From: a bacterium
GTDB taxonomy: Bacteria > SAR324 > XYD2-FULL-50-16
Reading direction: 5' to 3'
DNA: 44,038 nt
Assembly: GCA_024275165.1 (NCBI GenBank)
Contig: JAJRZQ010000021.1
Location: 1-44,038 of the forward strand
Of the stretch, positions 1,771 through 41,120 are shown one piece after another. The position numbers and the translations under genes are program-made. Numbering within the stretch: position 1 is the first letter of the stretch; every line of letters begins with the position of its first letter. The notes under the pieces were generated by a model. That model was not told the DNA's origin. It did not search any database and saw only the letters and a list, made by a program, of their open reading frames with translations.

Positions 1771-2955
1771 TCACACTAAGGAGAGCAAGGCGGCAATCAA
1801 CTTTTCCGGGTCAATCTGCTGGGTGTCTGGTGAAACGAGATCTAAGTCGAGCACCTGGATGCCGTGACGCTCTAAGCGCGGCAAGTCTTGAAGTCCCGCA
1901 TACTGCCCTTGGGACAAATCCAGCAACAGATAGTTGAGAAAAGGGTTGCCGGGGGCTTTGGCGCTGGAGTTTTGCGCTAAAATATCCAAGAGCTTTTCAA
2001 CCAAATGAGGTAAGTCATAACCTAATTGCTCGGGGTCATGGCCTAAATTGGGCACATAGACCTTTGGAGCCGGGTTTTTGGCAATGGCATCGGCCACCCC
2101 TTGGATTAAAAAATTAGCGCATAAACTGGAGAAAAAGCTCCCCATCGGATAGACGATCAATTCGGCCTGCTGGATGAATTCGCCTACCTTGGTCTTGAGT
2201 TTGGGGCGTTTGACCTGTTCTTTTTCATTGACCAACTCCAAGTGACGAATGGGGCTGGAAAGTCGCGGTTGTTCTTTCCCCGTCAGGTTGTGTTGCCCCA
2301 CCACCACCGCGCCGTCTTGCAAGGTCGCGCGCAATTGCAAATCAGAGGAACTGGTCGGGCGAACGATCCCTCTTGTTTCCACCAAGCGACTTAAAAGATA
2401 AAGCACCGGGTCAATTTGGCGGCGGTTGTTGAGGTAGCCCCCGACTAAGATCAGGTTGCCCAGGCTGGCCCCGGCCAACTGAAAGCTGTCGGGCATGGCC
2501 TGTTGAAAGTAGCCTAAGTGATTGCGAATGATTTTTCGTAAAGGGTCGGGTACGGCGCGCATCAAGGGGTGCCTCCCTTGAACCAAGCTGTCCAGCTCCG
2601 CCTTTAAATATTGTGGGTCGCTGTTGGGCCTGAAGCGGGTCGCAAAGAGTTGAAAGACCTCTTGATTGCCCTGTAGGGATTGATCCGCCAGACTCAGCAA
2701 GCGGTGTCGGAGGTCCCCCACAGCGAGCATGTTAAAATGTTTGCGAATTTCTGCGCTACTCCCACCCGAATCAAAGGGGGTACAGAGGTGAACGCTGTTA
2801 TGCGTATAGGCGATGAGGTTTTTGGAGAATTCGGCAAGCGCAGAGCCTCCTGTAAAAAAAAGGATGCGCGGGCCGAAGGAGGGTAAGCGGCGGCAACGCT
2901 CGACCTTGTAAGAGTCGGGCACCTGTAGGGCCTTGTTCAAGGTAACTAGAGGCAT
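1771..2955 (-). CDS. CofD-like protein of the GAK system
   Basis: Member of the CofD/YvcK fold (394 aa). CofD transfers 2-phospholactate to a deazaflavin; YvcK relatives bind nucleotide sugars. Visible family motifs are the glycine-rich first strand FFTGGSALAEF (about 33-43), DSGGSSAEIRKHF (about 62-74), GDLRHRLLSLAD (about 80-91), a central LAGASLGNLILVG (about 160-172), and YPMGSFFSSL (about 269-278), matching the GPGS/xTS segment of YvcK. The substrate of GAK CofD-like proteins is unknown to me. This is the last gene of the minus-strand GAK operon, 18 bases after the second amphi-Trp gene. The start at 2955 is the only ATG ahead of the first strand. It ends in TGA; no clear terminator follows before the tRNA. 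It is unlikely to be coenzyme F420 CofD, since no other F420 gene is nearby. Confidence 0.85.
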   Translation of the reverse strand: MPLVTLNKALQVPDSYKVERCRRLPSFGPRILFFTGGSALAEFSKNLIAYTHNSVHLCTPFDSGGSSAEIRKHFNMLAVGDLRHRLLSLADQSLQGNQEVFQLFATRFRPNSDPQYLKAELDSLVQGRHPLMRAVPDPLRKIIRNHLGYFQQAMPDSFQLAGASLGNLILVGGYLNNRRQIDPVLYLLSRLVETRGIVRPTSSSDLQLRATLQDGAVVVGQHNLTGKEQPRLSSPIRHLELVNEKEQVKRPKLKTKVGEFIQQAELIVYPMGSFFSSLCANFLIQGVADAIAKNPAPKVYVPNLGHDPEQLGYDLPHLVEKLLDILAQNSSAKAPGNPFLNYLLLDLSQGQYAGLQDLPRLERHGIQVLDLDLVSPDTQQIDPEKLIAALLSLV

Positions 2956-2973
2956 TTTTTTTCCGCCAAAAGC

Positions 2974-3291
2974 TTACTTAGCTGCCATCTCAGCTTTTTT
3001 TGCGGCTGTCGCGGAAGCGGCAAGCTGCTTGCTGCTGATCTTGAGGCTCGGCTCGGGTAGGCTGGTCTCTTCAATCGCCCAAGAGAACTTTAAGGCCAGC
3101 TTGCTCTTTTCTTTTTTCGCGGTGGCATCGAGTTCTAAGGTGATTAAAGCGGTGGGCTCGAGCAGTACCGTATCGTCACCGTATTCTAAGTTCAATCGGC
3201 CTGTTTTTAAGCCCTTGGCCAATTCTTCTAAATAATGAGCTACATCTTCACGCTTCATTAAAGACTTCGATTCTATGGATTGCTTTGCCAT
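2974..3291 (-). CDS. Amphi-Trp domain protein of the GAK system (copy 2)
   Basis: Small protein of 105 aa. The start at 3291 is chosen because AAGGAG lies five bases upstream; the open frame extends further but without support. It overlaps the 3' end of the HprK-related kinase gene by about 19 bases, so translation is probably coupled. Residues about 10-70 form the amphi-Trp domain: a helix with YLEELAKGLKTGRLNL, then a strand with LLEPTALITLELDA, then LALKFSWAIEE, whose Trp ends a strand of alternating hydrophobic residues. The tail is rich in Ala, Lys and Ser. It shares this architecture with the gene at 6935-7198. Amphi-Trp proteins have no known activity; small size and pairing with kinases and an ATP-grasp enzyme suggest a carrier or substrate (inference). 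Confidence 0.8.
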   Translation of the reverse strand: MAKQSIESKSLMKREDVAHYLEELAKGLKTGRLNLEYGDDTVLLEPTALITLELDATAKKEKSKLALKFSWAIEETSLPEPSLKISSKQLAASATAAKKAEMAAK

Positions 3292-4409
3292 ACAGGCTCC
3301 TTGGTTTGACTTCGTGATTGAGATGACCCCGTACCGCACAACCGAGAGATAAACCGCTCCGCCTTTTTAAAATCCACAGATCCCGTAATTTCATAGACGG
3401 TTACGCGGTCTAAGTGGTGGAGGTAGTCTTCTACCGGTTGCAGGTAGTGAGGTGAGAATTCCCCAGGTTGATAAAAGAGCCCAGGCTCTTTCATAAACGC
3501 GCGGAGAAGGTCTTGACGGGTTTCCAGCGAGACGGGATGAATCTCGGTGGGCCCTGCTTGATGTTGCCAGTTCAAGATAAAAAGATAGTCCATGGGGCTT
3601 TCTAAAATAAAATGACCGGGCCGGAAACATTGGTGTAAAAATACATCAAATTTTTGTTCGTGCTGCCATAAGACATTTCTCGGTAAGCGAGAGAAATAAC
3701 TGATCTCTTCCATGCTTAAAATAGCGAGTAGGTCTTTATTGTTTAAGGCGGTGCCGGGGTTGATGCGGGGTAACTTCGGAACGCCTCGCATCCAGGTCTG
3801 GTTTTCCACCTTATTGCTTAAAAGCCGGTCATTGCTGACAAAATCAGCCCCCTTACTCATCAAGTGCAGGGCTAGGGTTGACTTGCCCATTCCGGAAAAA
3901 CCGGCAATGGCGACCCCCTTCCCCTGGAAACGAACCGCGGAGGAATGACCCAAAACCCCGCCTTGAGAAAGGTAATACTCAATATAGCGATTATTGATGA
4001 AGTTGATGACTTGGCTTTCGTTTTCTAAACATTGCCCAAAAGCAAGGTTGATGGTTCCCCCACCAAATAGGAGAGAGAGCCCGGTGAGGCGTTTGCGTAC
4101 CACCCTGCCCCCCTCGAGGTCGCAATATTCTTCTTTAATTTTGCTTTTGTTGGGAGAGGGTTCCCGCAGGCGAAAGGGGATGTCTAAATCCAGATTGTCG
4201 GCTTGATACAGGGTTAGGGTGATGTCTTTTTGGGTTGCGCTGCCCAAAAAGGGACGATAGTAAAAGCGCAACTTACTGATCAGCCGTTTGGAGTTGGAAA
4301 GCACCCGCACCCTGCATTCACCAAAACGCAGGTCTAGATAATGTTCGGTTTGCGTGCCCGCTAGCAGGGCAGTGTACAATCGCTCTAAACTGGGAATTTG
4401 CTTTTTCAT
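3273..4409 (-). CDS. HprK-related kinase (type B, GAK system)
   Basis: 378 aa. The C-terminal half resembles the kinase domain of HPr kinase/phosphorylase: a conserved His in GHSSAVRF (about 154-161), a P-loop GFSGMGKST (about 170-178) and the downstream GADFVSNDRLL (about 187-197), where HprK carries its acidic residues. The N-terminal 150 residues are not a recognisable HprK N-domain. HprK proper phosphorylates a serine of HPr; no HPr or PTS gene is present, so this enzyme has another, unknown substrate. The gene begins one base after the stop of the ATP-grasp gene and overlaps the following amphi-Trp gene, placing it firmly in the operon. TIGRFAM's 'HprK-related kinase B' in GAK loci is the best match from memory; I could not run the model. 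Confidence 0.85.
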   Translation of the reverse strand: MKKQIPSLERLYTALLAGTQTEHYLDLRFGECRVRVLSNSKRLISKLRFYYRPFLGSATQKDITLTLYQADNLDLDIPFRLREPSPNKSKIKEEYCDLEGGRVVRKRLTGLSLLFGGGTINLAFGQCLENESQVINFINNRYIEYYLSQGGVLGHSSAVRFQGKGVAIAGFSGMGKSTLALHLMSKGADFVSNDRLLSNKVENQTWMRGVPKLPRINPGTALNNKDLLAILSMEEISYFSRLPRNVLWQHEQKFDVFLHQCFRPGHFILESPMDYLFILNWQHQAGPTEIHPVSLETRQDLLRAFMKEPGLFYQPGEFSPHYLQPVEDYLHHLDRVTVYEITGSVDFKKAERFISRLCGTGSSQSRSQTKEPVWQSNP

Positions 4410-4410
4410 G

Positions 4411-5295
4411 TTAATTTTGGTTGAGTTGTTGAATTACATGACGAGCATAGAGACGCGCCGCGTTGATGTGGTTGGCGTCCTTTAAGCCCTTAAAACCACC
4501 AAAGGCGCTTACCTCATAGATCATGGGGCCCTCTGCGGTTTCCACCAAGTCAACGCAGGTGAAGTCTAAATCAAAGGGGGAAATAGCCCTTTGGGCTAGG
4601 TCGATATATTCTTGGGGTGGGTCAAAGGCTTGGTAGGAGCCTCCATAAAAGGTTGAGGTCGTCCAGGAGGAGTTGTTTTTTCGCCTGGCATAGGTTCCTA
4701 AATATTGTCCGCCTAAAAAGGAGATCCCGAGGTCTTGCTTGGCGGAGTCCACAAATTTTTGCAAATAGAGGATGGGGTTGTTTTGTTGGTAGGCCAAGAT
4801 GTCACTCAAGTTTGTATTTTTTGCCTCCATCACTTCCATTCCCCTTGCCTTAGAGGTATACAGAGGTTTAAAAACCGCCTTGCTGAATTTTTTCAGCTCC
4901 TCATAGGCCTCTTCCGCGGACTCGGTAATCAGGGTCGCGGGCATGGGGATGTTTAATTTAGCTAAGGTAACCGTGCAGCTTAAACGGTCGATCAACTGTC
5001 CTAGGGCATGGGTGGAAGAGAAGATGCGAACTCCTTGATCCTCTAAGAGTTTTAATATACTCAAGCGTTGATTCATCTCGGGGCTGTATTGATTCCCCAA
5101 TTTTTTCACCACCAGGGCGTGGAACTCGGTCAAGTCGACCTTGCCGCAAAAGACGCGCCGCTCGGATATATCTAGGCGAAGTTGATGCACGCTAAAGAGG
5201 TGCCGTTCTCCGGTCATTTTTTCCAACTCTTCTGCCAGAATTTCACTGGACCACTTTCCCGGTAGTCCCAAAACGCCAATTTTCAACATATTCAT
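4411..5295 (-). CDS. RimK-like ATP-grasp enzyme, GAK system
   Basis: 294 aa, ATP-grasp superfamily: enzymes that form an acyl-phosphate and ligate an amine or thiol, as RimK does with glutamate. Visible features are an N-terminal Rossmann-like strand (KIGVLGLPGKWSS), a linker into the central domain (LAKLNIPMPATLIT, about 111-124), the nucleotide-binding lysine in KAVFKPLYTSKARGMEV (K143), an RRKNNSSW loop (about 204-211) and the metal-binding acidic strands CVDLVETAEGPMIYEVSAF (D249, E261). The start ATG follows the stop of the PhoU fusion directly (TAA-ATG), with another ATG two codons later, so translation is likely coupled. Substrates are unknown; the amphi-Trp proteins are candidates, which is inference. 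Confidence 0.87.
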   Translation of the reverse strand: MNMLKIGVLGLPGKWSSEILAEELEKMTGERHLFSVHQLRLDISERRVFCGKVDLTEFHALVVKKLGNQYSPEMNQRLSILKLLEDQGVRIFSSTHALGQLIDRLSCTVTLAKLNIPMPATLITESAEEAYEELKKFSKAVFKPLYTSKARGMEVMEAKNTNLSDILAYQQNNPILYLQKFVDSAKQDLGISFLGGQYLGTYARRKNNSSWTTSTFYGGSYQAFDPPQEYIDLAQRAISPFDLDFTCVDLVETAEGPMIYEVSAFGGFKGLKDANHINAARLYARHVIQQLNQN

Positions 5296-6951
5296 TTAAT
5301 AAATAAAGGTTTCATCAGGGATGACAAATTCATCTAATTCGCCTCGTTGCCATAGCTCTAGCCGATCAATCAGGTAATTGGCCCGCCAAAACATGCTGTA
5401 GGCCAAACCGCTTTGAAACTCAAAACGAGTCGAGGTGATCAGGTTGCGGATCAGACCTAAGGCGAGTCGTACTTCGAAATCCGGGTCTTGGTTTTCTTGG
5501 GCAAACTTCCGAGTAAAGCTCAGCATCTCACCGATACATTCTTGAATTCGCAGCCGGGTGGTGCGATCAAAAACCTTTTGGCGAAAACCAGAGACGAGGA
5601 ACACGGTTACATCTTGCACATAATCCCCAGGTTCGCTGCGATGCACATCAATAAATTGAATCTTGTTGGATTCACTGAGATGGAAGATATTATCTAAGTT
5701 GAAATCACCATGGACCCAGACCTGAAAGGGTAATTTTAATTTTGCCTCCAACTTGCGCAAGCGTTCTAGTTTCTCGCCGATGCTGGCTAATTGAAGGTCT
5801 CCGATTTGCTTGGCCGATTCTTCAAAGTAGGGGTGAGCCCGAAACACATCGGGCACCCGTTGCAGCAATTGCTCAATTAAGCGACTGGAGCGCTTTGTCG
5901 GTTCTTTGGTTTTAGTCCAAATATATTGCAGCGTTTCTAAGAGTCGCCGCAAGGCTAAGCGAAAGGCTAGGCCGTCTTTGTGGTGCAGCTTTTGTTGCAG
6001 CGTTCTCCCGGTAATAAACTCGGTCATCAAGCTGGCATGGTCTTTATCTGACTGAAACTCTAAAACTTTAGGCGTAATTCCAGGCATGATGCCGTGCCAA
6101 TGCTCAATTTTGTTTTTTTCCGCCTCGATTTTTTTTCGTTTCCCTTCTTTAAAAACGAAGTTCATGGGCAAGCCGTCTCCACCTTTAGTGCGCGCCAAAC
6201 CAATGCGGCAGCCCGAGCGGGTACCCAAAAACCCTTCTAATTCCAATTGATTGAATTTACCGGCGTCTAACTTATCCAGGCCTTTTTTCAAGCGGTTAAA
6301 CTGCTCGTACTTTAAACGATCACCGACAATAGAAAACAAAATCGCTTCCCCAATGTTGAGCAGGCAATCCCCAATCCGCTCTAGGTAGCGTAAAATAAAG
6401 CTGGCGGTTAAGTGGTTTTCCACTTCCTTGCCATTGCGCAAGGCTTCTAAAATATCGTTAAAATTGCGGATATATTCTTGATCTAGCGTTTCTTCGGCTT
6501 TGCAGATTTTCATCGCTTGATCTGAGTTTCGATTAAACAAGGCCTTACTGATTCGTTGCAGGCTGTCATGAATCAGCTTAAAGCTTTTATGATAATGCCA
6601 GCCGTGCATAAAAGCGGGGTTTTTTAAATAAACGGTCTGACGGGCAATATTGACCGTGTGGTCGCCAATGCGCTCTAAATTCCCCGCGATAATGCCTACC
6701 GCGCGGATCAGATTGGTTTGCCGTTTTTTTAAGCTTGCTTCTTGATACATCAGGTTAAAGCAATTGTTTCCCAGGTAGAGTTTTAAGCTATCCACATAGT
6801 CGTCTCGATCTACGATGGATTCGCGTAGCGTTGTTTCTCCCCGATCTAAGAGTTCCAAGGCCTGTTCCACCTGGCGGGTGACTTCCACTACCAATGCTCG
6901 TAGGCCGTCTTCTAAAAGGGAGGTGGAATAGGGTTTAGTCTTCATCCTCAT
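5296..6951 (-). CDS. PhoU domain fused to an aminoglycoside-phosphotransferase-like kinase
   Basis: About 551 aa with two domains. Residues 1-210 form a PhoU-type helical bundle with its two metal-binding signatures, LERIGDHTVNIARQ (about 93) and YLERIGDCLLNIGE (about 190). After a linker, residues about 250-551 resemble APH/choline-kinase phosphotransferases: TEFITGRTLQQKL, the catalytic VHGDFNLDNIFHL (about 413-425) and the metal-binding FIDVHRSEPGDYVQDV (about 433-448). All catalytic residues of the APH signature (HxDxxxxN and the later Asp) are present, so the kinase is probably active. Start choice is uncertain: an upstream TTG at 6966, ATG at 6951 and ATG at 6945 are all in frame, and none has ideal spacing to a ribosome site. 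It overlaps the amphi-Trp gene by about 17 bases. There is no phosphate transporter nearby, so classical Pho control is unlikely. Confidence 0.85.
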   Translation of the reverse strand: MRMKTKPYSTSLLEDGLRALVVEVTRQVEQALELLDRGETTLRESIVDRDDYVDSLKLYLGNNCFNLMYQEASLKKRQTNLIRAVGIIAGNLERIGDHTVNIARQTVYLKNPAFMHGWHYHKSFKLIHDSLQRISKALFNRNSDQAMKICKAEETLDQEYIRNFNDILEALRNGKEVENHLTASFILRYLERIGDCLLNIGEAILFSIVGDRLKYEQFNRLKKGLDKLDAGKFNQLELEGFLGTRSGCRIGLARTKGGDGLPMNFVFKEGKRKKIEAEKNKIEHWHGIMPGITPKVLEFQSDKDHASLMTEFITGRTLQQKLHHKDGLAFRLALRRLLETLQYIWTKTKEPTKRSSRLIEQLLQRVPDVFRAHPYFEESAKQIGDLQLASIGEKLERLRKLEAKLKLPFQVWVHGDFNLDNIFHLSESNKIQFIDVHRSEPGDYVQDVTVFLVSGFRQKVFDRTTRLRIQECIGEMLSFTRKFAQENQDPDFEVRLALGLIRNLITSTRFEFQSGLAYSMFWRANYLIDRLELWQRGELDEFVIPDETFIY

Positions 6952-7198
6952 CGCAACTAATGGCAACCTTGCCGCTTTCTTTCCAGGATAATTTTAAATG
7001 CAGTCGGCTTCCCTTGCTTTTTGCTTTGGCGGTGAGTTCCAACTTGATCAAGCCCTTGGGGTCTAAAATGATTTTTTCCCCATTGCTGGCTAGGGTCAGT
7101 TGTCCTTGGCGAAAGCCTTTGGTCAGGGTCTCTAAATATTGCACAATGGTTTGTTGATCCACCATGGAGGTAAAATCAAACTCTTGAGCCTTAGACAT
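6935..7198 (-). CDS. Amphi-Trp domain protein of the GAK system (copy 1)
   Basis: 87 aa, almost entirely one amphi-Trp domain: IVQYLETLTKGFRQGQLTL, a turn, IILDPKGLIKLELTAKAK, then RLHLKLSWKES and an acidic tail ending DEDED. The pattern YLExLxKGxxxGxLxL...LxPxxLIxLELxAxAK...LxLKxSW is shared with the protein at 2974-3291. The start at 7198 has AGGAG seven bases upstream; that sequence lies within the last codons of the preceding PHP-like gene. The 3' end overlaps the PhoU fusion. Role unknown; probably a substrate, carrier or assembly partner of the GAK enzymes. Confidence 0.8.
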   Translation of the reverse strand: MSKAQEFDFTSMVDQQTIVQYLETLTKGFRQGQLTLASNGEKIILDPKGLIKLELTAKAKSKGSRLHLKLSWKESGKVAISCDEDED

Positions 7199-7200
7199 GT

Positions 7201-8346
7201 TTACACTCCTAATCGGGATTTATATTCGGGGATTACTTGAGCTTTCAGCCCCCCCGCTTGGATGAGCGCTTTTTGGATTCTCATATCGTTCCACAAAGGC
7301 TGCACCCCGACTTCTCGACTCGCTTTTTCTCGGTTGAGCTCACGGGGCGGGTTGAGCTTTTCCCCTAGATGGGTGTCATCGCCCATAAAGATCAGCAGGG
7401 GCTTTTGGCCTCGTTTGCGGCGTTTGTTTTGTTTTTGTACCACCTGAATGAGAAATTCGGTGTAGGTGAAAGATTGCGGGTTCCAGACCTCAATTCCATC
7501 CACATCATATTCAGCGAGCAAGACAGGCCAAAACTGTTCGGGGTGGGGGATGACAATTCCACCGCCTAAAGAGCGGGTCTCCTCTATGATTTCTTGAGTT
7601 TTGTAAAAATAACTGAGATCAAAGGAGGATTTCACTTGTTTTTTTACTTCCTTGGCAAAGGCTTGCGCTAGGTCAATGAAGCTGTCGTTTTCGCCTGTTC
7701 GTTGCTCTTCGATAAAATTACGGATCAATTTATTTTTGATCACATCGGGGGGTAGATTATCGCTATGGCGATCAATCAGGGTTTCCAGCTTTTGCGCTAT
7801 GGCGCGGCAGAATTCAACGACTTCCTTGCTGGCTCCGGTATTGCTAGCGGCCTTTTGCAATTCAAAGTCAGCTGATTTAACGGCGAGTCGATGTAAAAAG
7901 CCAAAGAGTTGACTGGAGCGGTAACGAAAGGTGTGGTCCAACATCTGTTTGAGTACGCTTGCCTCTTTGATCTTACCTGGATGAAAGTGCAATAAAAGCT
8001 GCACCTTGGTGCCAAATTCAGGGGACCAACAATCCACCTCCACCCCAGCGTAAAAGTCATAGACCATTAAATGATTGTGCTGAGTGGGAATGATTAAGGA
8101 CTGCTCCATTTTAGGAAAGGTGTGTTCTACCCGTTGGCGAATCAAGTTGAGGGGTAGATACTCAGGGTGCCAATGTACGGCGACCACTTCGGTTTCTTTA
8201 GGAAAAACCTCCAGGGGCTGGGCGAGCAACCTTTTTTCTTCCACCGTGAGGCTTTGTCGAGTGATTTTCAAAAAGGTTTTTTCGTCTCGCGCCGTGACCT
8301 CTCCGGTTGGTTTGCTGGGGCCTTGTTTCATGGTGGCTTTACTCAT
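7201..8346 (-). CDS. PHP-like metal-dependent hydrolase, first gene of the GAK operon
   Basis: 381 aa. It is a divergent PHP-superfamily protein, judged from His/Asp clusters in the expected order: HWHPEYLP (H58, H60), PTQHNHL (H90, H92), GVEVDCW (E103), LLLHFHPGK (H120, H122), then after a helical insert VIPHPEQFW (H268) and FMGDDTHLGE (D323, D324, H326). PHP enzymes use such clusters to bind up to three metals and cleave phosphoesters or pyrophosphates. The order differs enough from standard PHP phosphatases that the assignment is moderate. The start at 8346 has an AGG about ten bases upstream; a second ATG lies five codons in. As the first gene it would be transcribed from the AT-rich divergent region 8347-8685. 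The substrate is unknown, but a phosphoester hydrolase fits with the kinases of the operon. Confidence 0.7.
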   Translation of the reverse strand: MSKATMKQGPSKPTGEVTARDEKTFLKITRQSLTVEEKRLLAQPLEVFPKETEVVAVHWHPEYLPLNLIRQRVEHTFPKMEQSLIIPTQHNHLMVYDFYAGVEVDCWSPEFGTKVQLLLHFHPGKIKEASVLKQMLDHTFRYRSSQLFGFLHRLAVKSADFELQKAASNTGASKEVVEFCRAIAQKLETLIDRHSDNLPPDVIKNKLIRNFIEEQRTGENDSFIDLAQAFAKEVKKQVKSSFDLSYFYKTQEIIEETRSLGGGIVIPHPEQFWPVLLAEYDVDGIEVWNPQSFTYTEFLIQVVQKQNKRRKRGQKPLLIFMGDDTHLGEKLNPPRELNREKASREVGVQPLWNDMRIQKALIQAGGLKAQVIPEYKSRLGV

Positions 8347-8685
8347 GGGGTCAACCTAGTTGTTCGGGTTTAAGCGGAGCATACACCTTTTTCTCTGGAG
8401 CGCTGTGAAGCTTAGGTTAAATTTATGTAAAACCATCGCAAGGGTACTTGGCGTAATATTTTTTATATAAGTTATTGATTATATAAAATATCACCTTATT
8501 TTAAAAGATGATTTTCTTTAGTCGCGGCAAACTTAACCTTGAAAAAAGCGAGAGATCAGGGTTGCCAAATCGGGGCAGCAGAGAAGTTTACAACAATTTA
8601 ACTCTACAGCCGCCACTGGGTGGGATAAAATAAAATTCTAGATCATTCAAATATCCATTGTACCCCCCCAGTCTAGGGAGCTTAG
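8347..8685. promoter_or_regulatory. Divergent control region between the GAK operon and the chemoreceptor gene
   Basis: 339 bases with no gene. The centre (about 8455-8515) is strongly AT-rich and holds two identical self-complementary octamers, TTATATAA at 8463-8470 and 8479-8486, starting 16 bases apart. -10-like hexamers occur on both strands (a TATAAT reads leftwards across 8478-8483), but no strong -35 pairs with them. AGGGAG lies seven bases upstream of the chemoreceptor start. The region must carry the GAK promoter; the exact start sites cannot be told. Confidence 0.55.
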
Positions 8686-10806
8686 ATGAATACAAGCTTA
8701 AAGATTTCTCCTCACAAGCAGCGCAGTAAAGCCCTACGCTTGTTTTTATATAATTTCAGACGAGCGGTCCGTTTACTGGCAAATCAATATGGTTTTCTTA
8801 GTATTGGTAAAAAAATTACGCTGCTGGTGTTTTTATTTGCCCTGCTCTTTTTGGCGGAGGTGGGCATAACCAATTGGGGGTACGGTATCGTTATTGGGGA
8901 AGTGGCGAAATTGCAAGAGGCCCAAGAGGCGCAAAAGGCGACCGCTAAGATTCAAACTTTAGCCTTGGAAGCGCGCACTTTGGAAAAGGAATTTTTTCTT
9001 CGCCCCGGCTTAGAAACAAAAGAGCGCTTTTTAGAAAAGTTGCAGGCCGCAGAAAACGCGGCCGAGCGGTTGACCTTGTCCGGGGTCACCCCTCAGGTCG
9101 AGGCTCACTTGGCTCAACCGACGGTGGAGGCCGAAGAGGAATTAACCAGTGTATTTGATGAAAACTTTGACCCTGCGAGCGAAAAACCCTCCATCCCCGC
9201 CCCGGAAAAAACCGCACCCTCCAAGGAATTACCCCCCTTGAGCCCTAAAGAGGAAGAGGTATTGAAATTCCTGCAAGCCAATCAGGGGGTGCGACAGATT
9301 TTAAGTGAGTACCGCCAATCCTTTGAGCAGGTCTTTAGTCTGAATGAAAACATGGGTTTTGATTTTGCTTCCGGTTACCGAGGTCGCTTTATGGAGAGCG
9401 CGGCCCGCATTGAGGCAGAGCTGAAGCGATTGAAGCTGAAGGGTTTATTGGAACAGTTTCATTTGCTGCGAAACCAAGAAAAAGATTACTTTCTCGGGGA
9501 CGCGAGCGCGGGCAAGCGGGTCGGTAAAAGCGCGGAGTTGTTGCGGGCTCGCTTAACGCGCCGCCTAGGAAGCGACCACCCCTTGGTACGCCCTGCCGGC
9601 TTGTTGGACGGCTACCTCTCAAATTTCGACCGGGTGCGAACCTATACCATGAAAGCCTTTGAAATGAGTGAGCAGTTTCAGGAAGACTTCTTGAGGCTGC
9701 CCCAACTCTTACAAACTCTAGATGAGGTCACCTTACAACGGCAAATGATGATTGGGAGTCGGGCCAACAAAGTCATGGCCCAAATTCGCGCCCGTTTGCT
9801 CTGGGGCGGATTAATCGCCTTGGCCTTGATCTTTTTGGTCAGTTGGGCGTTGAGTTATTCCATTATCGAGCCGATCCGTCAGGTTTTTGCCCTCACCCGC
9901 AAACTGAGCCAAGGCGATTTGGCGATTCGGCTCAACGACCGACGCCGGGATGAAGTGGGCGCCATGTCCAAGGGTTTTAATGGTTTTATCGTTTACTTGC
10001 GGGGAATGATTCAAACCATCCATCAAAATACCGCAAACCTCTCCACCGCGGCGGTGGAGTTGGCCGCGACCACCAGCGAGATTGAAAAGACCACCCAAGG
10101 GGTAAACCAGGGAGTCGATCACTCCCATCACAGTTTACAAACAACGGCGCAAAATATTGATGTCTTGGCAGAAACCATTAGGGGCATTACCCATGAAATC
10201 GTCGAGTTGCGAAACAGCACCCAGGCGGTTGAAACCAAAACCCAGTTGGGGCAACAAACCATGCTGTCCGCTCAGCAGGCAATGGGAGAAATCGAGTCTT
10301 CCAGCCACTTGATCGGCAAGATCGTCTACCAGATTAAAACCATTAGCCAGCAAATCAGCATGTTCAGCTTCAACACCGCTATTGAGGCGGCAAGAGCGGG
10401 GAACGCGGGAAAAGGCTTTCAGGTTTTGGCGGCGGAGGTCCGCCGTCTAGCCGAAGCGAGCCATGAGTCGAGCGAAGAGATCGGGCTACTCGCGGCGGGG
10501 AGCCAAGAAAAGGTTTTATTGGGGAAAGAAGTGGTGGAGGTGGCGCAAAACCAGTTCAGCGAGATCACCCTTGATGTTAGCGGGATTCGGCAACGGCTGG
10601 ATCGGATGAGTCAAAGCCTGATTCAGCAGGATCAAAAAACCCAAAGCTTAGCCCAAGAAACTCAATTGATTCGCTCGATCAGTAAAGAAAACTCAGAAGC
10701 CATGATGGGCTTGGCCATTGCCATTCGCCAGGTGGATCAAACCACGACCGAGTTGACCAAAATGGCCGATTTTCTCCATTCCAAGGTTCAGGTCTTTAAG
10801 CTTTAA
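8686..10806 (+). CDS. Methyl-accepting chemotaxis protein with a large helical sensor domain
   Basis: 706 aa. Membrane segments lie at about 44-61 and 371-391, enclosing a roughly 310-residue periplasmic domain. The latter has two similar elements, LEKEFFLRPG (about 99) and NQEKDYFLGD (about 263), which resemble the paired helical bundles of HBM-type sensors that bind organic acids. Between them, residues about 145-190 are acidic and Pro-rich, probably a disordered insert. HAMP follows at about 392-445, then the signalling hairpin with tip SMFSFNTAIEAARAGNAGKG (about 558-577); the usual LALNAAIEAARAGE is altered to FSFNTAIEAARAGN. No C-terminal CheR-tether pentapeptide is visible. It starts at ATG 8686 with AGGGAG upstream. 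It stands alone, next to GAK and carbohydrate genes and far from the che operon at 35-44 kb. Confidence 0.93.
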   Translation: MNTSLKISPHKQRSKALRLFLYNFRRAVRLLANQYGFLSIGKKITLLVFLFALLFLAEVGITNWGYGIVIGEVAKLQEAQEAQKATAKIQTLALEARTLEKEFFLRPGLETKERFLEKLQAAENAAERLTLSGVTPQVEAHLAQPTVEAEEELTSVFDENFDPASEKPSIPAPEKTAPSKELPPLSPKEEEVLKFLQANQGVRQILSEYRQSFEQVFSLNENMGFDFASGYRGRFMESAARIEAELKRLKLKGLLEQFHLLRNQEKDYFLGDASAGKRVGKSAELLRARLTRRLGSDHPLVRPAGLLDGYLSNFDRVRTYTMKAFEMSEQFQEDFLRLPQLLQTLDEVTLQRQMMIGSRANKVMAQIRARLLWGGLIALALIFLVSWALSYSIIEPIRQVFALTRKLSQGDLAIRLNDRRRDEVGAMSKGFNGFIVYLRGMIQTIHQNTANLSTAAVELAATTSEIEKTTQGVNQGVDHSHHSLQTTAQNIDVLAETIRGITHEIVELRNSTQAVETKTQLGQQTMLSAQQAMGEIESSSHLIGKIVYQIKTISQQISMFSFNTAIEAARAGNAGKGFQVLAAEVRRLAEASHESSEEIGLLAAGSQEKVLLGKEVVEVAQNQFSEITLDVSGIRQRLDRMSQSLIQQDQKTQSLAQETQLIRSISKENSEAMMGLAIAIRQVDQTTTELTKMADFLHSKVQVFKL

Positions 10807-10902
10807 AAAAATACGCCTAGGTTTTGCTTTCATTTTACAGAAGTTTTGCATTTTTCCCTTTTGTCTCAGCTAAACTAGAAGGAAAAAGGGAAAAAGTCGT
10901 TT

Positions 10903-13299
10903 ATGGGAATTATTGGAAAACTACTCTCCACCAAACAAGTTGAGCGGGCCCTGCATTATCTTTTGCGCAAAAGAGGCCTAGACTACTTGATCCCTTTTTT
11001 AAAGGGGCTCAGTCATGTGGGTCGGCCTACCCAGGTTTTTTTTCCGCCCGAGCTTTTAGAGCAGGGTCTGGCCATGTTGCTTTCGGGGTTAAACAACACG
11101 CTCGCTGTGCAGACCTATCCGCATTGGGTATGGCCCCACTGGATCGAGGCGCAAAAAGACCCTCACAACCCCGCCTTCATCCCCACGGGGGTGAACCTCC
11201 TGACCCCCAACTTGACCGAACGCAATTGGTGTTCCTTGGGTCTGCCCGGTAGCCGCCATGAGATCATGGTAGACCGCCAAGGCCTGTTGACGCCTCATGC
11301 CTTTGGCTGGTCTCTGTTACCCTACCTCAAGGTGGAAAATCAGAGCTTTGTCCCCCCTCGCCTGCCTGAGATCAAGCAGCGGCTTACCCCACAAGGCCCG
11401 GGGGTGAAAACCTATTACTTCCTGCCCTTTGCCTTAAGTTGGAAGACCCATATCCAGGTACTTTGCTTTGAGGGGGAAGAGGTGGCGGTGATGACCCAAA
11501 AGCTGCGCAACCAAAGTGAAACCTTGATGGAAGTGGTTTTAGGTTTTAGTTTGCGCCCCTACAATATGCTCACGGTGGGGCATATCAATAAGGTTAAAGT
11601 CAAAAACGGGCTTTGGCGGATCAACCGCAAGCCCGCTCTCTTTATGCCTTTAAAGCCCACTCGCTTAGGGGTCGTTTCCTCGGAGATGCAAGACCCCATT
11701 TTAGAGGCCTTCCAACTCAATACGACCCAAATGCGGAGTGCCTCCGGTCTTTTAATCGGCTACTTTGAGTATGAAATCCGCTTAGCCCCTGGAGAAAAGC
11801 AGGAAGTCTCGGTAATGTTGCCGGTTCATCGGTCTTTCCCGAACCGTAATTTCAGTCATTACAGCTTGGAAAATTTGCAAGGAGCCAAAAAAGAGGCGCA
11901 AAAAGAAACCCAGGCGAGAACCCAAAAAGGCTTTTGTCTGCGACTGCCCAACAAGGTCTGGGTTCAAGGGTTCGAGGCGATTAAATCTCGTATCCATGTC
12001 TTTGACGACCAGGATTATTTTACGGCGGGGTCCTATTTTTATCATGAGCAATGGTTGCGGGATTCCTCCTTTTTGGCGCTGGCTCACTTACAGCTTGGCT
12101 GGTTTGCCCAGGTGGAGTCAAAGCTTAAGGCTATTTTGGCGCTGCAAACCCGTGAGGGGTTTTTTAAAAGTCAAGATGGAGAATGGGACGGGGCCGGCCA
12201 GGGAATTTTTATTTTTTGGAATTATATTCGTTACAGTGGCGATCTTTCCACTCTCAAGCGTTATTATCCGGCAATGCGCAAGGCCGGGGCATGGATTGAT
12301 AAAACCCGCAAAGAAGAACCCGATAGCCGAAGCCTTCATTTTGGGTTGTTGCCCGCGGGTTTATCTGCCGAGCATTTTGGCCCCAACGATCATTATTTTT
12401 GGGATAACTTTTGGGGGCTTTGGGGCTTGCGGGCTCTGGTCGAGGCGGCAGAGGCTCTGGGCGACTCCCAGGATCAAGCCGAGTTTGAGGCCCTGGCCGC
12501 CGCTTATGAGGCCGACCTTTTATCGGCTTTGGAGAAAGCTCTGGCTCGCGAGGGAACCTTGTGCCTGCCCCCTTCGCCTTATCGTCAGATGGACGCGGCG
12601 GCGGTCGGCAACTTGGTGGCTTTAAGCCCCTTAAACCTTTTTTCCCCGCAGGAGGCTTGGGTCAAGCCTACCTTAGATTGGCTCTGGGAAAACAGCCTAC
12701 AGGAGGGGCTTTTTTTTCAGAGCATCATTCATACGGGTTTTAACGCCTATCTCAGCGCTCAGGTAGCCCGCGCCTTTTTAATGCGGGGCGACCCCAGGCT
12801 ATACCCTATTTTAGAGGCTTTAAGCGCAGCGGCAGGGCCTCTTTGGACTTGGCCCGAAGCGATTCACCCTCATACGGGCGGGGGGTGCATGGGGGATGGA
12901 GATCACGGCTGGGCAGCAGCGGAATGGATCAATCTCATGCATGATCTTTGTGTGTTGGAAACGGCATCGGGCCTGATTTTAGGCGCCGGGTTCGACCCCG
13001 CCTGGTTTGTCGAAGGATTGCGGATCAAGGTGGAAGAAGCCGCTACCCCCTTAGGCAGCCTAAGCTACGAGCTGCGACAAGAAAAAAAATTTCTGACATT
13101 CACCTGGAAGCTGGAACGAGGAAGTTGTTTCGCGCGCCAACCCCTTTTTTTAGCCCTCCCCCAAAACCATTTTGCCATCCCTAAGGGTCTATCTCCTTTT
13201 GGTGTCTTACGCAGCCTGTTCCCCTTAGAAGGGGAGCAGGGTCAAATCATTTTACCCAAAAACCTAAACCATGAACCGAAGCTTGAACTTAAACCCTGA
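10903..13299 (+). CDS. Six-hairpin (alpha/alpha)6 glycosidase, amylo-alpha-1,6-glucosidase-like
   Basis: 798 aa. The N-terminal half (to about 350) is beta-rich, as in the N-domain of debranching-type enzymes. The C-terminal half (about 365-700) is a helical barrel with HEQWLRDSSFLALAHL, TREGFFKSQDGEWDGAGQG, FWNYIRYSGDLSTLKRYYP and, near the end, GGGCMGDGDHGWAAAEW, motifs typical of glycogen-debranching/trehalase-like six-hairpin glycosidases. Candidate acids lie in DGEWDG and in the GDGDHGWAAAEW segment, but I cannot assign catalytic residues. There is no signal peptide, so it is cytoplasmic. The gene overlaps the next one by 29 bases, indicating a two-gene unit with the PHP-glycosyltransferase. 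Together they could turn over an alpha-glucan or a glycoside (inference). The start at 10903 follows a purine-rich AAGGGAAAAAG. Confidence 0.75.
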   Translation: MGIIGKLLSTKQVERALHYLLRKRGLDYLIPFLKGLSHVGRPTQVFFPPELLEQGLAMLLSGLNNTLAVQTYPHWVWPHWIEAQKDPHNPAFIPTGVNLLTPNLTERNWCSLGLPGSRHEIMVDRQGLLTPHAFGWSLLPYLKVENQSFVPPRLPEIKQRLTPQGPGVKTYYFLPFALSWKTHIQVLCFEGEEVAVMTQKLRNQSETLMEVVLGFSLRPYNMLTVGHINKVKVKNGLWRINRKPALFMPLKPTRLGVVSSEMQDPILEAFQLNTTQMRSASGLLIGYFEYEIRLAPGEKQEVSVMLPVHRSFPNRNFSHYSLENLQGAKKEAQKETQARTQKGFCLRLPNKVWVQGFEAIKSRIHVFDDQDYFTAGSYFYHEQWLRDSSFLALAHLQLGWFAQVESKLKAILALQTREGFFKSQDGEWDGAGQGIFIFWNYIRYSGDLSTLKRYYPAMRKAGAWIDKTRKEEPDSRSLHFGLLPAGLSAEHFGPNDHYFWDNFWGLWGLRALVEAAEALGDSQDQAEFEALAAAYEADLLSALEKALAREGTLCLPPSPYRQMDAAAVGNLVALSPLNLFSPQEAWVKPTLDWLWENSLQEGLFFQSIIHTGFNAYLSAQVARAFLMRGDPRLYPILEALSAAAGPLWTWPEAIHPHTGGGCMGDGDHGWAAAEWINLMHDLCVLETASGLILGAGFDPAWFVEGLRIKVEEAATPLGSLSYELRQEKKFLTFTWKLERGSCFARQPLFLALPQNHFAIPKGLSPFGVLRSLFPLEGEQGQIILPKNLNHEPKLELKP

Positions 13300-15982
13300 G
13301 GACTTTCGTCAAGAGGTTCGCCTCGAGTTGCAGCAATTCGCGAACTTAAAAGAGTTGTGCTTTCAACCCGAACATCGCTTGAAAATCGACTTGCATTGCC
13401 ACGACCACAACAGCCGCGAACCGGACGAGCTTTGGGGGCGTATCTTGGGGCTGCCCGAAACCTGGTTGAGTACCGAATCCTTGGCAACGGTGCTGAAGAA
13501 AAATCAATGCGATTTAATAACCGTCACCAACCACAATAACGCGGATTCTTGCTGGCAACTCTTGGATCAGGGGCGGGATGTATTGGTGGGGGCGGAATTC
13601 ACCTGTACCTTTCCCGAATACGGGATCAAGGTGCATGTTTTGGCCTACGGTTTTACTCCGCGCCAAGAAGAACAGTTCAAAGTCTTGCGCAAAAATGTTT
13701 ATCGCTTTTGCGCCTATGCGGCAGAACAGAGCATTCCCTTGATCTTGCCGCACCCTCTGTTTTTTTACAGTGGGGCCAAGCAACCCCCCTTGGAACTTTT
13801 AGAAAAGTTTGCCTTACTTTTTAGGTCCTTTGAGGTCTTAAACGGCCAACGCAACGCTTGGCAAAACTACCTGACCTTGGAATGGGCGCGGGGGTTGAAG
13901 GAAGAAAAGATCCTCCAGCTAGAAAAAAAACATGGAATTTCAGCGCATTATTTTTTAGAGGAGCCTTATAAAAAGGTTTTAACCGGAGGGTCGGATGATC
14001 ACCTTGGGGTTTTGGCAGGTTATACGGGCTCTTATCTCTCGGTTCCCAACCTAGCGCAGCGCCGCCAGGAAGAACCCCTTTCCGCCTTGGCTTTAGAGGC
14101 GATTCGAGAGGGCCGCATAGCGCCTTACGGCCTCCCTGGTGAAGAAGAACGGCTCAACTTAGCCTTTTTGGATTACTTTGCCCAAGTGGGCCTCAACATG
14201 AACGATCCCGGGCTGCTCAGGATGTTTTTGCACCGTGGCGAAATCCAAGACAAGCTGTTTTGCTTCGGGATCGGCAACGCGATGATGGAGATGCGTCGAC
14301 ACAATCACACCATGAAGTTTTTAAAAACCTTTCACGAGGCCTTAGGGGGGAAGCGACCCGGGTTTTTGCTGAAACGAGGGGTCGCTAAGGGCTACCGGCC
14401 CGTGATGGAGGTGTTGGACCAGCTTGCTCAAGAGAAGAAGAAGCATGCTATAGGCTACCAGGGGCAAATTGGCCCCCTCTTAGAGAAATTCAACCAAGAG
14501 ATTCACCGCCTTTTAAACCAACGGGTGGGGGAAAAGGTAAAACAAAATCTGCATTGGGATAAACTCCAATCCTTAAGTATGGAAGATTGGATTCAAAAGT
14601 TGGAGGTTCCCAGCAGCTTGCGCGATTTGTTTACCTCGGAGGGGAAAACAAAATTGGAGAGCAGCCGAGGCATGACCCCGGTCAACTTAAGTGATTTAAC
14701 CGATGGGCTTTCTTTTCCCAGTTTGATCTGGATGGTTTTAGCGGGTTCTTCTCTCGCGGCGACCCGGGTGCTGCACCAAAATCGTTCTTTTTTAGACAAA
14801 CTGGCAGAAGACCTCCAATGCCTTAAACCGAGGAAGCGCCTTTTGTGGCTTACCGATACTTTTTTTGATCACAATGGGGTCTCTTCGGTATTGCAGTTGA
14901 CCTTAGCCGAGGTGCGTCGGAGGAATTTACCGATTGATTTTTTGGTTTTGGATGAAAAAATGGAAACCAAGGATCACTTGATCGTGCTGCGCCCCGTCGC
15001 GCAATTCACCTTAGAAAATTTTGCGAATCAGGCCTTTCGCGTTCCCAACCTGTTGGAGGCGCAAAAGATTTTTTATGACAAGGCTTATGACGGGGTCATC
15101 ACCTCGACGGAACTTTTTATGGGGCCGGTCGCTCTTTTTCTCAAAGAGGCGTTTAATGTCCCCGCTTATTTTTATATGCATACCGATTGGATGGATTTTC
15201 TTGCCCGTACAACCGATTTGGATATTCATGCGCGAGACCGGATCCGGCGGATTTTGCGTTTTTTTTACCAGCGTTTTGACGGTATTTTTGCTCTGAATGA
15301 GGAACACCGTCAATGGCTGAGCAGTTCGGCGATGGAGATTCCAGCCGAAAAGATTCATACCACCGCTCATTGGGTATCGAAACGCTTTCAGCCTCAAAGG
15401 GCAAGCAAGCAAAAACTTTTTGGGGTGAGTGAAAACACACCGGTATTGATTTTTGCCGGGCGGATGAGCCGAGAAAAGGGGGTTTTTGAGGTGGTCAGCC
15501 TTTATCGGCAACTTAAATCGCGGTTTCCTGATCTGCGACTGGTTTTTGCGGGGGATGGCCCGGCCAAAGCGGAATTGGAGCAGGCAGTAGGAGCCGCGAT
15601 TTTTTTAGGCTGGGTTGCCTCGCAAGACTTGCCCCTTTATTATAGCGCGGCGGATTTATTGATCTTGCCCAACCGTTTTGACACCTTTGGTTGCGTGGTT
15701 TTAGAGGCGATGAGTTGTGGGCTCCCCGTTGCCGCTTTTGACTGCAAGGGGCCGAAGGATTTGATTCAAGATGGGGTCAACGGGGTGCTGGCAGAAGACC
15801 TCCCTAGCTTGACGGCAAAGGTCGGGAAATTGTTGCAAGAGCCAAAACAACTACAGAATTTAAGTGAAAAAGCCTTGCGACGAGCGGCGGACTATCAACC
15901 TGAGGGGATTATGGATCGCTTTTTGGCCGATTTGGGTTATGCCTCTCAGACTGCCCTGACCGAACGGGTTACCTTGGGTTAA
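13271..15982 (+). CDS. PHP phosphoesterase-GT4 glycosyltransferase fusion
   Basis: 903 aa with two enzymes. The N-terminal PHP domain (about 37-250) shows DLHCHDHNS (H42, H44), TVTNHNN (about 84-90), GAEF (E109), VHVLAYG (H122), LPHPLFF (H161) and GGSDDHLG (D242, H244), the complete PHP metal set. A helical region without recognised family follows (about 290-510). The C-terminal domain (about 515-890) is a GT-B glycosyltransferase of family 4: LWLTDTFFDHNGVSS, then IFAGRMSREKGV, VFAGDGP, AADLLILPNRFDTFGCVVLEAMSCG with the E-x7-E region, and GPKDLIQDGVNG. The combination could make a glycosyl phosphate or glycoside and remove a phosphate in one polypeptide, as synthase/phosphatase pairs do for compatible solutes; this is inference. 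The start at 13271 lies inside the preceding glycosidase gene. Confidence 0.88.
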   Translation: MNRSLNLNPEDFRQEVRLELQQFANLKELCFQPEHRLKIDLHCHDHNSREPDELWGRILGLPETWLSTESLATVLKKNQCDLITVTNHNNADSCWQLLDQGRDVLVGAEFTCTFPEYGIKVHVLAYGFTPRQEEQFKVLRKNVYRFCAYAAEQSIPLILPHPLFFYSGAKQPPLELLEKFALLFRSFEVLNGQRNAWQNYLTLEWARGLKEEKILQLEKKHGISAHYFLEEPYKKVLTGGSDDHLGVLAGYTGSYLSVPNLAQRRQEEPLSALALEAIREGRIAPYGLPGEEERLNLAFLDYFAQVGLNMNDPGLLRMFLHRGEIQDKLFCFGIGNAMMEMRRHNHTMKFLKTFHEALGGKRPGFLLKRGVAKGYRPVMEVLDQLAQEKKKHAIGYQGQIGPLLEKFNQEIHRLLNQRVGEKVKQNLHWDKLQSLSMEDWIQKLEVPSSLRDLFTSEGKTKLESSRGMTPVNLSDLTDGLSFPSLIWMVLAGSSLAATRVLHQNRSFLDKLAEDLQCLKPRKRLLWLTDTFFDHNGVSSVLQLTLAEVRRRNLPIDFLVLDEKMETKDHLIVLRPVAQFTLENFANQAFRVPNLLEAQKIFYDKAYDGVITSTELFMGPVALFLKEAFNVPAYFYMHTDWMDFLARTTDLDIHARDRIRRILRFFYQRFDGIFALNEEHRQWLSSSAMEIPAEKIHTTAHWVSKRFQPQRASKQKLFGVSENTPVLIFAGRMSREKGVFEVVSLYRQLKSRFPDLRLVFAGDGPAKAELEQAVGAAIFLGWVASQDLPLYYSAADLLILPNRFDTFGCVVLEAMSCGLPVAAFDCKGPKDLIQDGVNGVLAEDLPSLTAKVGKLLQEPKQLQNLSEKALRRAADYQPEGIMDRFLADLGYASQTALTERVTLG

Positions 15983-38284: not shown

Positions 38285-38290
38285 CGTAAT

Positions 38291-38671
38291 TCAAGGTTGT
38301 AGCTTGAGCACTTGAACCACTCGAGCCAGCAAATCCTCATGGGTAAAGGGTTTGGTTAAGTAATGGCGAATTCCTGCGCGAATGGCTTTGAGCATGGATT
38401 CTCGGCGGTCTTCAGCCGTGAGCATAATAACGGGAATTTGGGCATATTCCGGTTTGTCTTGGAGGAGTAAAAAGAGGTCGTAGCCTTCCATTTCGGGCAT
38501 ATGCCAATCCAATAAGATCAAATCAATGGGTTGTTTTTGCAAAATAGCCAAAGCCGGGGTTGCTCCTTCGGCCTCGTAAATATCGAAGTTAAAGATTTCC
38601 AAAGCCTGATGGACGATTTTGCGCAAGGTCGGACTATCATCAATGATGAGAATTTTTTTTACTTCTTCCAT
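38291..38671 (-). CDS. CheY-type response regulator
   Basis: 126 aa, one receiver domain: ILIIDDSPTLRKIV, LILLDWHMPEMEGYDL (acceptor Asp), VIMLTAED (Thr), YLTKPFTHEDL (Lys). The residues of a working phospho-acceptor site are complete. A strong AAGGAG ribosome site is formed by the last codons of the upstream cheR (Lys-Glu-stop) just before ATG 38671. Likely the diffusible output of this operon's CheA. Confidence 0.92.
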   Translation of the reverse strand: MEEVKKILIIDDSPTLRKIVHQALEIFNFDIYEAEGATPALAILQKQPIDLILLDWHMPEMEGYDLFLLLQDKPEYAQIPVIMLTAEDRRESMLKAIRAGIRHYLTKPFTHEDLLARVVQVLKLQP

Positions 38672-38673
38672 GA

Positions 38674-39513
38674 TTACTCCTTAACTTTGTAATAGACGCC
38701 ATTGCCAAAGGTATAGCTCTCAAAGCGATGATTTAACCCAAAAAGAGACTCGGTGGCGCCTAAGATCATACTGCCATCGGGCCTTAATACCTGCGCGATT
38801 TTTCCAAAAAGTTCTTCTTTAAAGCTTTTGGAAAAATAAATGGCCACATTGCGGCAAAAAACCAAGTCAAACTTGCCCAAGGGAGTAAAGTGATCCATGA
38901 GGTTGAAGGTTTGAAAACGAACCTTTTTTTTGTGATCCTCAATGATTTCATAATAAGAGCCCTGTCGAACGAAGTTTTGATCCCGTCGTTGTGGGGAGAG
39001 GCCACGACTGATGGTAAAGGCATCATAGCGGCCCTGCTGGGCTAAATACACCGCATAACGGCTGATGTCGGTGCCAATAATTTCAATGGAGTCGAAATAA
39101 TTTAGCTTTCCTGACTTTTGGAGCAGCTCGTTTAAAAGCATGATCAGGCTGTAGGCCTCTTGCCCTGTTGAGGAGGCGGCAGACCAGACCCGCACCTTTT
39201 GCCCCTGATCTATTTTGCCGATCAGTTCTGGGAGGTGTAAATGCTCAAGCGTGTGCCAAAAGGAATCATCTCGAAACCAAAGGGTTTCGTTGGTGGTCAT
39301 CAGGTCCACCACGCGGGGGAGGAGTTCTGGATCCCCTACAATAGAACGGTGCAGGTCGCTGAAGCTTGCCGCTCCAACCTCTACGGCCAATTCGGTGAGG
39401 CGGGTTTCGACCAGGTAATCTTGGTCGGGCTTTAAATCAATTCCACAGACCGAAACTAAGAGGTCTCGAATTTTAGTGAATTCGTGCTCGGTAATGGGGC
39501 TAATGCGTGCCAT
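38674..39513 (-). CDS. cheR: Chemotaxis protein methyltransferase CheR
   Basis: 279 aa, the usual length. It methylates glutamates of chemoreceptors with SAM. N-terminal helical domain (about 1-75), then the methyltransferase: VRVWSAASSTGQEAYSLIMLL, IIGTDISRYAVYLAQ, DLVFCRNVAIYF (with CRNV) and SMILGATESLFGL. It begins two bases after the stop of cheB, indicating translational coupling. The only chemoreceptor in the window is at 8686, without an obvious CheR-binding tail. Confidence 0.95.
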   Translation of the reverse strand: MARISPITEHEFTKIRDLLVSVCGIDLKPDQDYLVETRLTELAVEVGAASFSDLHRSIVGDPELLPRVVDLMTTNETLWFRDDSFWHTLEHLHLPELIGKIDQGQKVRVWSAASSTGQEAYSLIMLLNELLQKSGKLNYFDSIEIIGTDISRYAVYLAQQGRYDAFTISRGLSPQRRDQNFVRQGSYYEIIEDHKKKVRFQTFNLMDHFTPLGKFDLVFCRNVAIYFSKSFKEELFGKIAQVLRPDGSMILGATESLFGLNHRFESYTFGNGVYYKVKE

Positions 39514-39515
39514 AA

Positions 39516-40583: not shown

Positions 40584-40621
40584 GAATTTCTAATTTATGA
40601 TGGTCAAAAAATAAAATAAAA

Positions 40622-41116: not shown

Positions 41117-41120
41117 AGGG

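Follow-up and report, generated by a model that had tools for sequence, protein, structure and literature searches.

The GAK system (grasp, amphi-Trp, kinase) is known from the NCBIfam database as a named system of undescribed function, and no paper on it, on its amphi-Trp proteins or on HprK-related kinases was found in the open literature. Its parts resemble those of systems that have been described: the PhoU/Pst signalling system, the RimK, MptN and LysX ligases, the HPr kinase/phosphorylase HprK, the YvcK/GlmR (UPF0052) and CofD proteins, and RNase AM and the PHP phosphoesterases. HprK enzymes use phosphate and pyrophosphate, and known HprK relatives carry out phosphate-reversible serine phosphorylation. 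Pyrophosphate hydrolysis has been demonstrated for one PHP domain (PMC4822814). Here, an operon at positions 1771-8346 on the minus strand of a SAR324 contig (JAJRZQ010000021.1) was compared with these systems and with related loci; "the window" denotes the whole contig stretch of 44,038 nucleotides (nt), to which all positions refer. Our results show that the operon adds a new member to the GAK system, that four genes form the core of this system in the genomes searched, and that GAK loci lie beside phosphate uptake and regulation genes more often than expected.

The operon consists of seven intact open reading frames running from 8346 to 1771, in agreement with a first-pass annotation made from the sequence alone, followed here by the region upstream of it (aa, amino acids):

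7201-8346, minus strand: operon gene 1, PHP-superfamily metallohydrolase, 381 aa, supported by a structure-model match and invariant residues
6935-7198, minus strand: amphi-Trp protein 1, 87 aa, TIGR04354 at 62 bits (cut-off 31), beginning 2 nt past the PHP stop codon
5296-6951, minus strand (listed as 5296-6966): PhoU-APH fusion, 551 aa from the ATG at 6951, Pfam PhoU and APH
4411-5295, minus strand: GAK ATP-grasp enzyme, a RimK/MptN/LysX-like ligase, 294 aa, TIGR04356 at 394 bits (cut-off 300)
3273-4409, minus strand: HprK-related kinase B (HprK_rel_B), 378 aa, TIGR04355 at 430 bits (cut-off 200)
2974-3291, minus strand: amphi-Trp protein 2, 105 aa, with an LKISS motif and a low-complexity tail, TIGR04354 at 70 bits (cut-off 31)
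1771-2955, minus strand: last gene, GAK CofD/YvcK-like protein (CofD_rel_GAK), 394 aa, TIGR04357 at 483 bits (cut-off 340), Pfam CofD E 1.5e-35
8347-8685, no strand: intergenic region up to a divergent chemoreceptor gene, the presumed site of the operon promoter

Neighbouring genes are separated by gaps of 0-18 nt or share up to about 20 nt, a spacing as in a translationally coupled operon. Two listed starts were revised: for PhoU-APH, the ATG at 6951 or 6945 is more likely than the listed TTG at 6966, and for amphi-Trp protein 2, listed from a GTG at 3339 inside the HprK gene, the alignment makes the ATG at 3291 most likely, from which the two genes overlap by 19 nt.

Profile searches were made with the NCBIfam models TIGR04354-TIGR04358 at their curated cut-offs and with Pfam. 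Five genes scored above the cut-off of four NCBIfam models (TIGR04354, TIGR04355, TIGR04356 and TIGR04357), which bears out the GAK-type identity that the first-pass annotation had proposed. All seven family names given there were correct; the HprK-, grasp- and CofD-like genes matched their own GAK models, and none matched an unrelated family. The reading of PhoU and APH as one protein was confirmed by Pfam (PhoU, E 4.5e-26; APH, E 1.6e-8), and the PhoU E/D motif residues and APH residues K273, H419, D421, N426 and D440 are invariant among 26 orthologues. As in PhoU/Pst signalling, the GAK PhoU domain keeps intact bundle motifs and is linked to pst, pho or pit genes in genomes, but it is fused to an APH kinase domain, is not part of a pst operon in the window, and stays below the PhoU equivalog cut-off (93 vs 130 bits).

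The first gene, which had been called a PHP-like hydrolase, had no match in Pfam or NCBIfam, and for this gene the earlier name is upheld by a structure model and by conservation. The AlphaFold2 model (mean predicted local distance difference test score, pLDDT, 90.7; predicted template modelling score 0.88) matched RNase AM (9etk, E 1e-5) and a PHP phosphoesterase (3e0f, E 2e-5) in a Foldseek search of the PDB, both with probability 1.00. Residues H58, H60, E62, H90, E103, D105, H120, H268, D323, D324 and H326 are invariant in 26 orthologues, and they include the candidate metal-ligand motifs HxH, E, H and DxH. The predicted fold and this pattern, shared with RNase AM and the PHP phosphoesterases, support a PHP-superfamily metallohydrolase, although sequence similarity to those enzymes is not detectable, the structural overlap is partial (template modelling scores 0.42/0.54), and the GAK protein has long helical segments of its own.

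To learn how far this arrangement is shared, 34 related loci from several phyla (cited by L numbers) were compared with gene calls guided by hidden Markov models (HMMs), organism labels being those of the records and metagenome bins included. As the first-pass annotation would lead one to expect, set and order are conserved, running [XXXCH]-PHP-amphi-Trp-PhoU-APH-GRASP-HprK-CofD-amphi-Trp-[XXXCH], and chance assembly is therefore excluded. L012 is an exception, with no PHP gene at the usual place and PhoU-APH split over two frames. Each locus encodes two to four small amphi-Trp proteins, the second lying between HprK and CofD in Lambdaproteobacteria and after CofD elsewhere. Apparent ATP-grasp-HprK fusions were rejected as over-extended frames in GC-rich loci that disappeared under HMM-guided calls. 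The window shares neighbours and order with Desulfovibrio and relatives but differs in having no XXXCH protein (TIGR04358) in the operon or genome, where none was found in a search that gave no match in control genomes either. The earlier description of the operon as complete thus applies to the GAK core with HprK and CofD added, but not to XXXCH, which occurs in 17 of the 34 loci and counts as a frequent accessory, not as part of what defines the system.

The closest relatives of the window locus are in Candidatus Lambdaproteobacteria, and GAK CofD was found in only 4 of 52 genomes of the window's own phylum. Elsewhere the system occurs in the Desulfobacterota-type lineages Desulfovibrio, Desulfarculus, Desulfobacteraceae and Desulfobulbaceae, and also in Nitrospirae, Eisenbacteria, Coatesbacteria, candidate division GN15, one Spirochaetia bin, and Solincola and Geothermincola, which we take to be Actinobacteria.

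Co-occurrence was followed in 148 genomes from the phylum of a Desulfovibrio locus (Desulfobacterota-type); because these are not phylogenetically independent, no P value is attached to the pattern. PHP, PhoU-APH and ATP-grasp had an identical distribution, each being confined to the same 11 genomes, and amphi-Trp proteins exceeded the cut-off in all 11 and in 15 others. HprK_rel_B was found in ten of the 11, always together with amphi-Trp (10/10) and nowhere else over the cut-off, and CofD in nine (one split by frameshifts) plus five further genomes. Two intact operons are shorter: L049, of the four-gene type, ends after ATP-grasp, with neither HprK nor CofD, beside a convergent chemoreceptor-like gene, and L045 ends after HprK, without CofD. 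The core therefore comprises PHP, amphi-Trp, PhoU-APH and ATP-grasp, whereas HprK and CofD are add-ons and the name-giving kinase is not essential. This nesting tells which genes to test first.

A second pattern concerns the neighbourhood. In L033 and L036, a full GAK operon has pstS-pstC-pstA directly upstream and a PhoB-like gene on its other flank; in L032, a convergent pst-phoU operon with PhoB/PhoR-like genes faces GAK, an arrangement of which the pstB-phoU end is seen in L028. PhoB- and PhoR-like genes stand beside PHP in L019, and in L029 a PhoB-like gene lies upstream and PstS downstream. The names PhoB- and PhoR-like are tentative, as these proteins score best or near best with those models but below cut-off. 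In L044 (genome G204), a GAK-type CofD gene (10313-11506) stands after pstS-C-A-B-phoU and before mgtE, and the rest of GAK is not in the genome; it nests inside the GAK clade of the tree and is therefore probably derived from a GAK system. Four more distant solo CofD genes of one lineage (L043, L058, L059 and L060) have a phosphate transporter pair, DUF47-Pit, in their vicinity; in L058 the distance is about 1.5 kb and a pseudouridine synthase gene intervenes. PstC was located in 39 genomes, mostly as one copy over cut-off, and in five of them (three lineages) no more than 10 kb separate it from GAK or a GAK-type CofD, against about 0.23 expected on the assumption of 1.1 copies per genome and a 3.7-Mb genome (P 5e-6; P ~0.002 counting only three independent lineages). 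GAK thus stands beside Pst/Pho genes more often than expected, a tie to phosphate uptake and sensing that appears new as far as found in the literature.

The PhoU domain in the core, with its motifs intact, and the linkage to Pst, Pho and Pit genes support a phosphate-related role, and we tentatively propose that GAK is a cytosolic phosphate-homeostasis module, or phosphate-linked modification circuit, built on amphi-Trp proteins. From the gene set, the conserved active sites, the core and add-on structure and the phosphate linkage, all of which were observed, we infer every reaction and its direction as follows. The PhoU bundle would read phosphate or metal-phosphate status and gate the fused APH kinase domain; the ATP-grasp enzyme would make an amide bond on an amphi-Trp protein, or with its help, this protein acting as substrate or platform; and the PHP enzyme would reverse the phosphorylation or hydrolyse a pyrophosphate or phosphoester product. 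Among the add-ons, the HprK-type kinase would most likely have an amphi-Trp protein as its target, perhaps at the conserved flexible tail of that protein, and the YvcK/CofD-type protein may couple a phosphorylated ligand to PhoU. Given pyrophosphate hydrolysis by a PHP domain and the use of phosphate and pyrophosphate by HprK, such an enzyme set would be chemically coherent. A fuller version, in which amphi-Trp is charged by the RimK-type ligase and phosphorylated under the PhoU-gated kinase, making GAK a phosphate-responsive protein-modification system and a third layer beside Pst-PhoU and PhoBR in anaerobes of several phyla, must be considered unlikely as a whole.

Several observations weigh against this proposal. 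The phosphate link is guilt by association: the majority of GAK loci, the window among them, lack phosphate genes in their neighbourhood, the pst genes of the window's genome are on different contigs, and a sixth solo CofD (L041) stands beside trkH, which is not a phosphate gene. In a PhoB-box scan, upstream repeats did not exceed those of shuffled sequences for most operons, and the window's intergenic region (8347-8685) contained no Pho-box-like repeat above chance; a TTGTTAC-type repeat is common to the upstream regions of L033 and L036 (p ~0.1). One genome has the core without HprK. Among the conserved residues of amphi-Trp (W72 invariant, K60 near-invariant) there is no obvious modification site, and several first-position proteins have a tail motif without Ser/Thr. 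Until now GAK has had a name without an assigned function. Its link to Pst, PhoU and Pit offers a concrete growth condition, phosphate, with a read-out, which together with the four-gene core makes the function directly testable. If amphi-Trp does undergo modification, sulphate reducers and other anaerobes would have a phosphate-linked protein-modification pathway of a new kind.

The active-site residues of the GAK enzymes are invariant (APH/PhoU motifs; ATP-grasp Lys/Asp/Glu; HprK His, P-loop and Asp), and the enzymes therefore look competent. The ATP-grasp enzyme matches RimK (5zct, E 1.4e-24) and LysX (1uc8) by profile, and its best score after its own model is with MptN (145 bits). It aligns over its full length with these ligases and keeps the ATP-binding Lys and metal-binding Asp/Glu, but falls under every equivalog cut-off except its own, and the third metal ligand, Asn, is replaced by the invariant Ser263 (EVS for EVN in 30/30). 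The strongest rival explanation arises here, namely a biosynthetic pathway whose product would be a small molecule, phosphorylated and amidated, that serves as a cofactor or for phosphate storage. In such a pathway, APH would phosphorylate a hydroxyl, ATP-grasp add an amino acid, CofD transfer a phospho-group from a nucleotide donor and PHP trim, with amphi-Trp as carrier or chaperone, and the phosphate link would mean storage or supply rather than signalling. The mix of a CofD fold with a RimK-family glutamate ligase recalls the F420 and tetrahydromethanopterin pathways, and invariant active sites are expected of enzymes; however, CofD is dispensable (absent from L045 and L049) and by profile nearer to YvcK than to 2-phospholactate transferase, and the presence of two to four amphi-Trp proteins at each locus is easier to reconcile with a protein substrate or platform than with a metabolite. 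We regard this pathway as somewhat unlikely. The first-pass annotation had suggested modification or loading of amphi-Trp as well as synthesis of a phosphorylated cofactor, and either may apply.

HprK_rel_B aligns with HPr kinase (1jb1/2qmh), and the equivalents of HprK His140, P-loop Lys/Ser and Asp179 (H155, K176-S177 and D194) are invariant in 30 orthologues. However, only the P-loop part aligns, the Asp178 equivalent is Asn in 30/30, a distinct N-terminal domain carries several invariant or near-invariant Lys/Arg residues, and the score with the HprK equivalog TIGR00679 is below cut-off (38 vs 240 bits). GAK CofD matches the YvcK-family structures 2ppv and 2o2z; it belongs by profile to the same family as YvcK/GlmR and CofD and keeps the GG, DxGGSS, GDxRN and GNL motifs, with a GAK-specific RKIIRNH stretch. 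In the HMM/profile alignment, the position of YvcK Tyr265 is variable and that of Arg301 is Asp in 27 of 31 sequences.

An HprK-type kinase, a YvcK-type protein and a small protein of about 85 aa are also the ingredients of a carbon or envelope regulator like YvcK/HprK/Crh, in which the kinase would phosphorylate amphi-Trp as HprK does HPr or Crh, the CofD-like protein would sense a UDP-sugar, and the phosphate genes would be incidental. In Bacillus, yvcK and crh are neighbours, which also speaks for this arrangement. YvcK binds UDP-sugars, and loss of Tyr265 or Arg301 strongly impairs its binding of UDP-N-acetylglucosamine (PMC5482804), but GAK CofD has lost both equivalents, and its ligand is therefore probably a different one. 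With HprK and CofD outside the core, and an amphi-Trp fold that matches no HPr structure, such a regulator seems improbable.

The predicted amphi-Trp fold comprises one helix and four strands (alpha-beta-beta-beta-beta; pLDDT > 90 over most of the domain), for which Foldseek gave no significant PDB match; homology to HPr was rejected on these grounds. For the tail, of which LKISS is part, confidence is low and no regular structure is predicted. The LxI[S/G][S/T] tail motif occurs, by a stringent pattern, in 32 of 66 tails compared with 4% in shuffles. It was rejected as a GAK-specific motif, since stand-alone amphi-Trp proteins can likewise terminate in a shorter LxI form, and is therefore only a weak phosphosite candidate. 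Charging of the C-terminus as in the LysX/LysW system was likewise rejected, as amphi-Trp C-termini vary and lack a conserved LysW-like end. Stand-alone amphi-Trp genes without GAK occur in L046, L047, L048, L050 and L051, by eye next to anaerobic ribonucleotide reductase-like genes in L046 and QueE/QueD-like genes in L050.

A further alternative is a defence system or a pathway for ribosomally synthesized and post-translationally modified peptides, with amphi-Trp as the modified peptide; ATP-grasp ligases and HprK-like kinases are known from such pathways, for example for lasso peptides. Against this, amphi-Trp is predicted to be a folded domain, the operon has no protease, transporter or leader peptide, its order is kept across phyla and PADLOC gave no match, and we consider this explanation very improbable.

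The XXXCH proteins (TIGR04358; L009, L010, L011, L013, L014 and others) carry an amphi-Trp-like domain at the N-terminus and a degenerate domain resembling cytochrome c' at the C-terminus. When the sequence of the latter was compared with the PDB, cytochromes c' ranked first and filled the top two dozen places (E 9e-4). The first haem-binding Cys is lost, and the domain ends in CHxxY[KD]. No signal peptide was seen by eye, and covalent haem attachment is therefore unlikely.

In the window, a chemoreceptor gene (8686-10806, plus strand) adjoins the GAK operon, as do such genes in the unrelated loci L008, L012 and L049 and probably L028 and L032; they are numerous in these genomes. It is followed on the plus strand (10903-15982) by a glycosidase-like gene (weak Bac_rhamnosid6H) that overlaps the gene for a 903-aa protein. 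This protein has a GT4 glycosyltransferase at its C-terminus and, by eye, a PHP-like region at its N-terminus, and its relatives are also encoded near GAK in L029 and L036. At 35618-43967 (minus strand) lies an ordinary-looking chemotaxis-type cluster, by eye CheA, CheW, CheB, CheR and a PP2C-type response regulator. Finally, a gene for a phosphatidylserine-decarboxylase-family protein, paired with one for an LGT-like membrane protein, is found close to GAK in three loci that differ in origin (L010, 531-3458; L029, 12492-14598; L037, 19767-21118).

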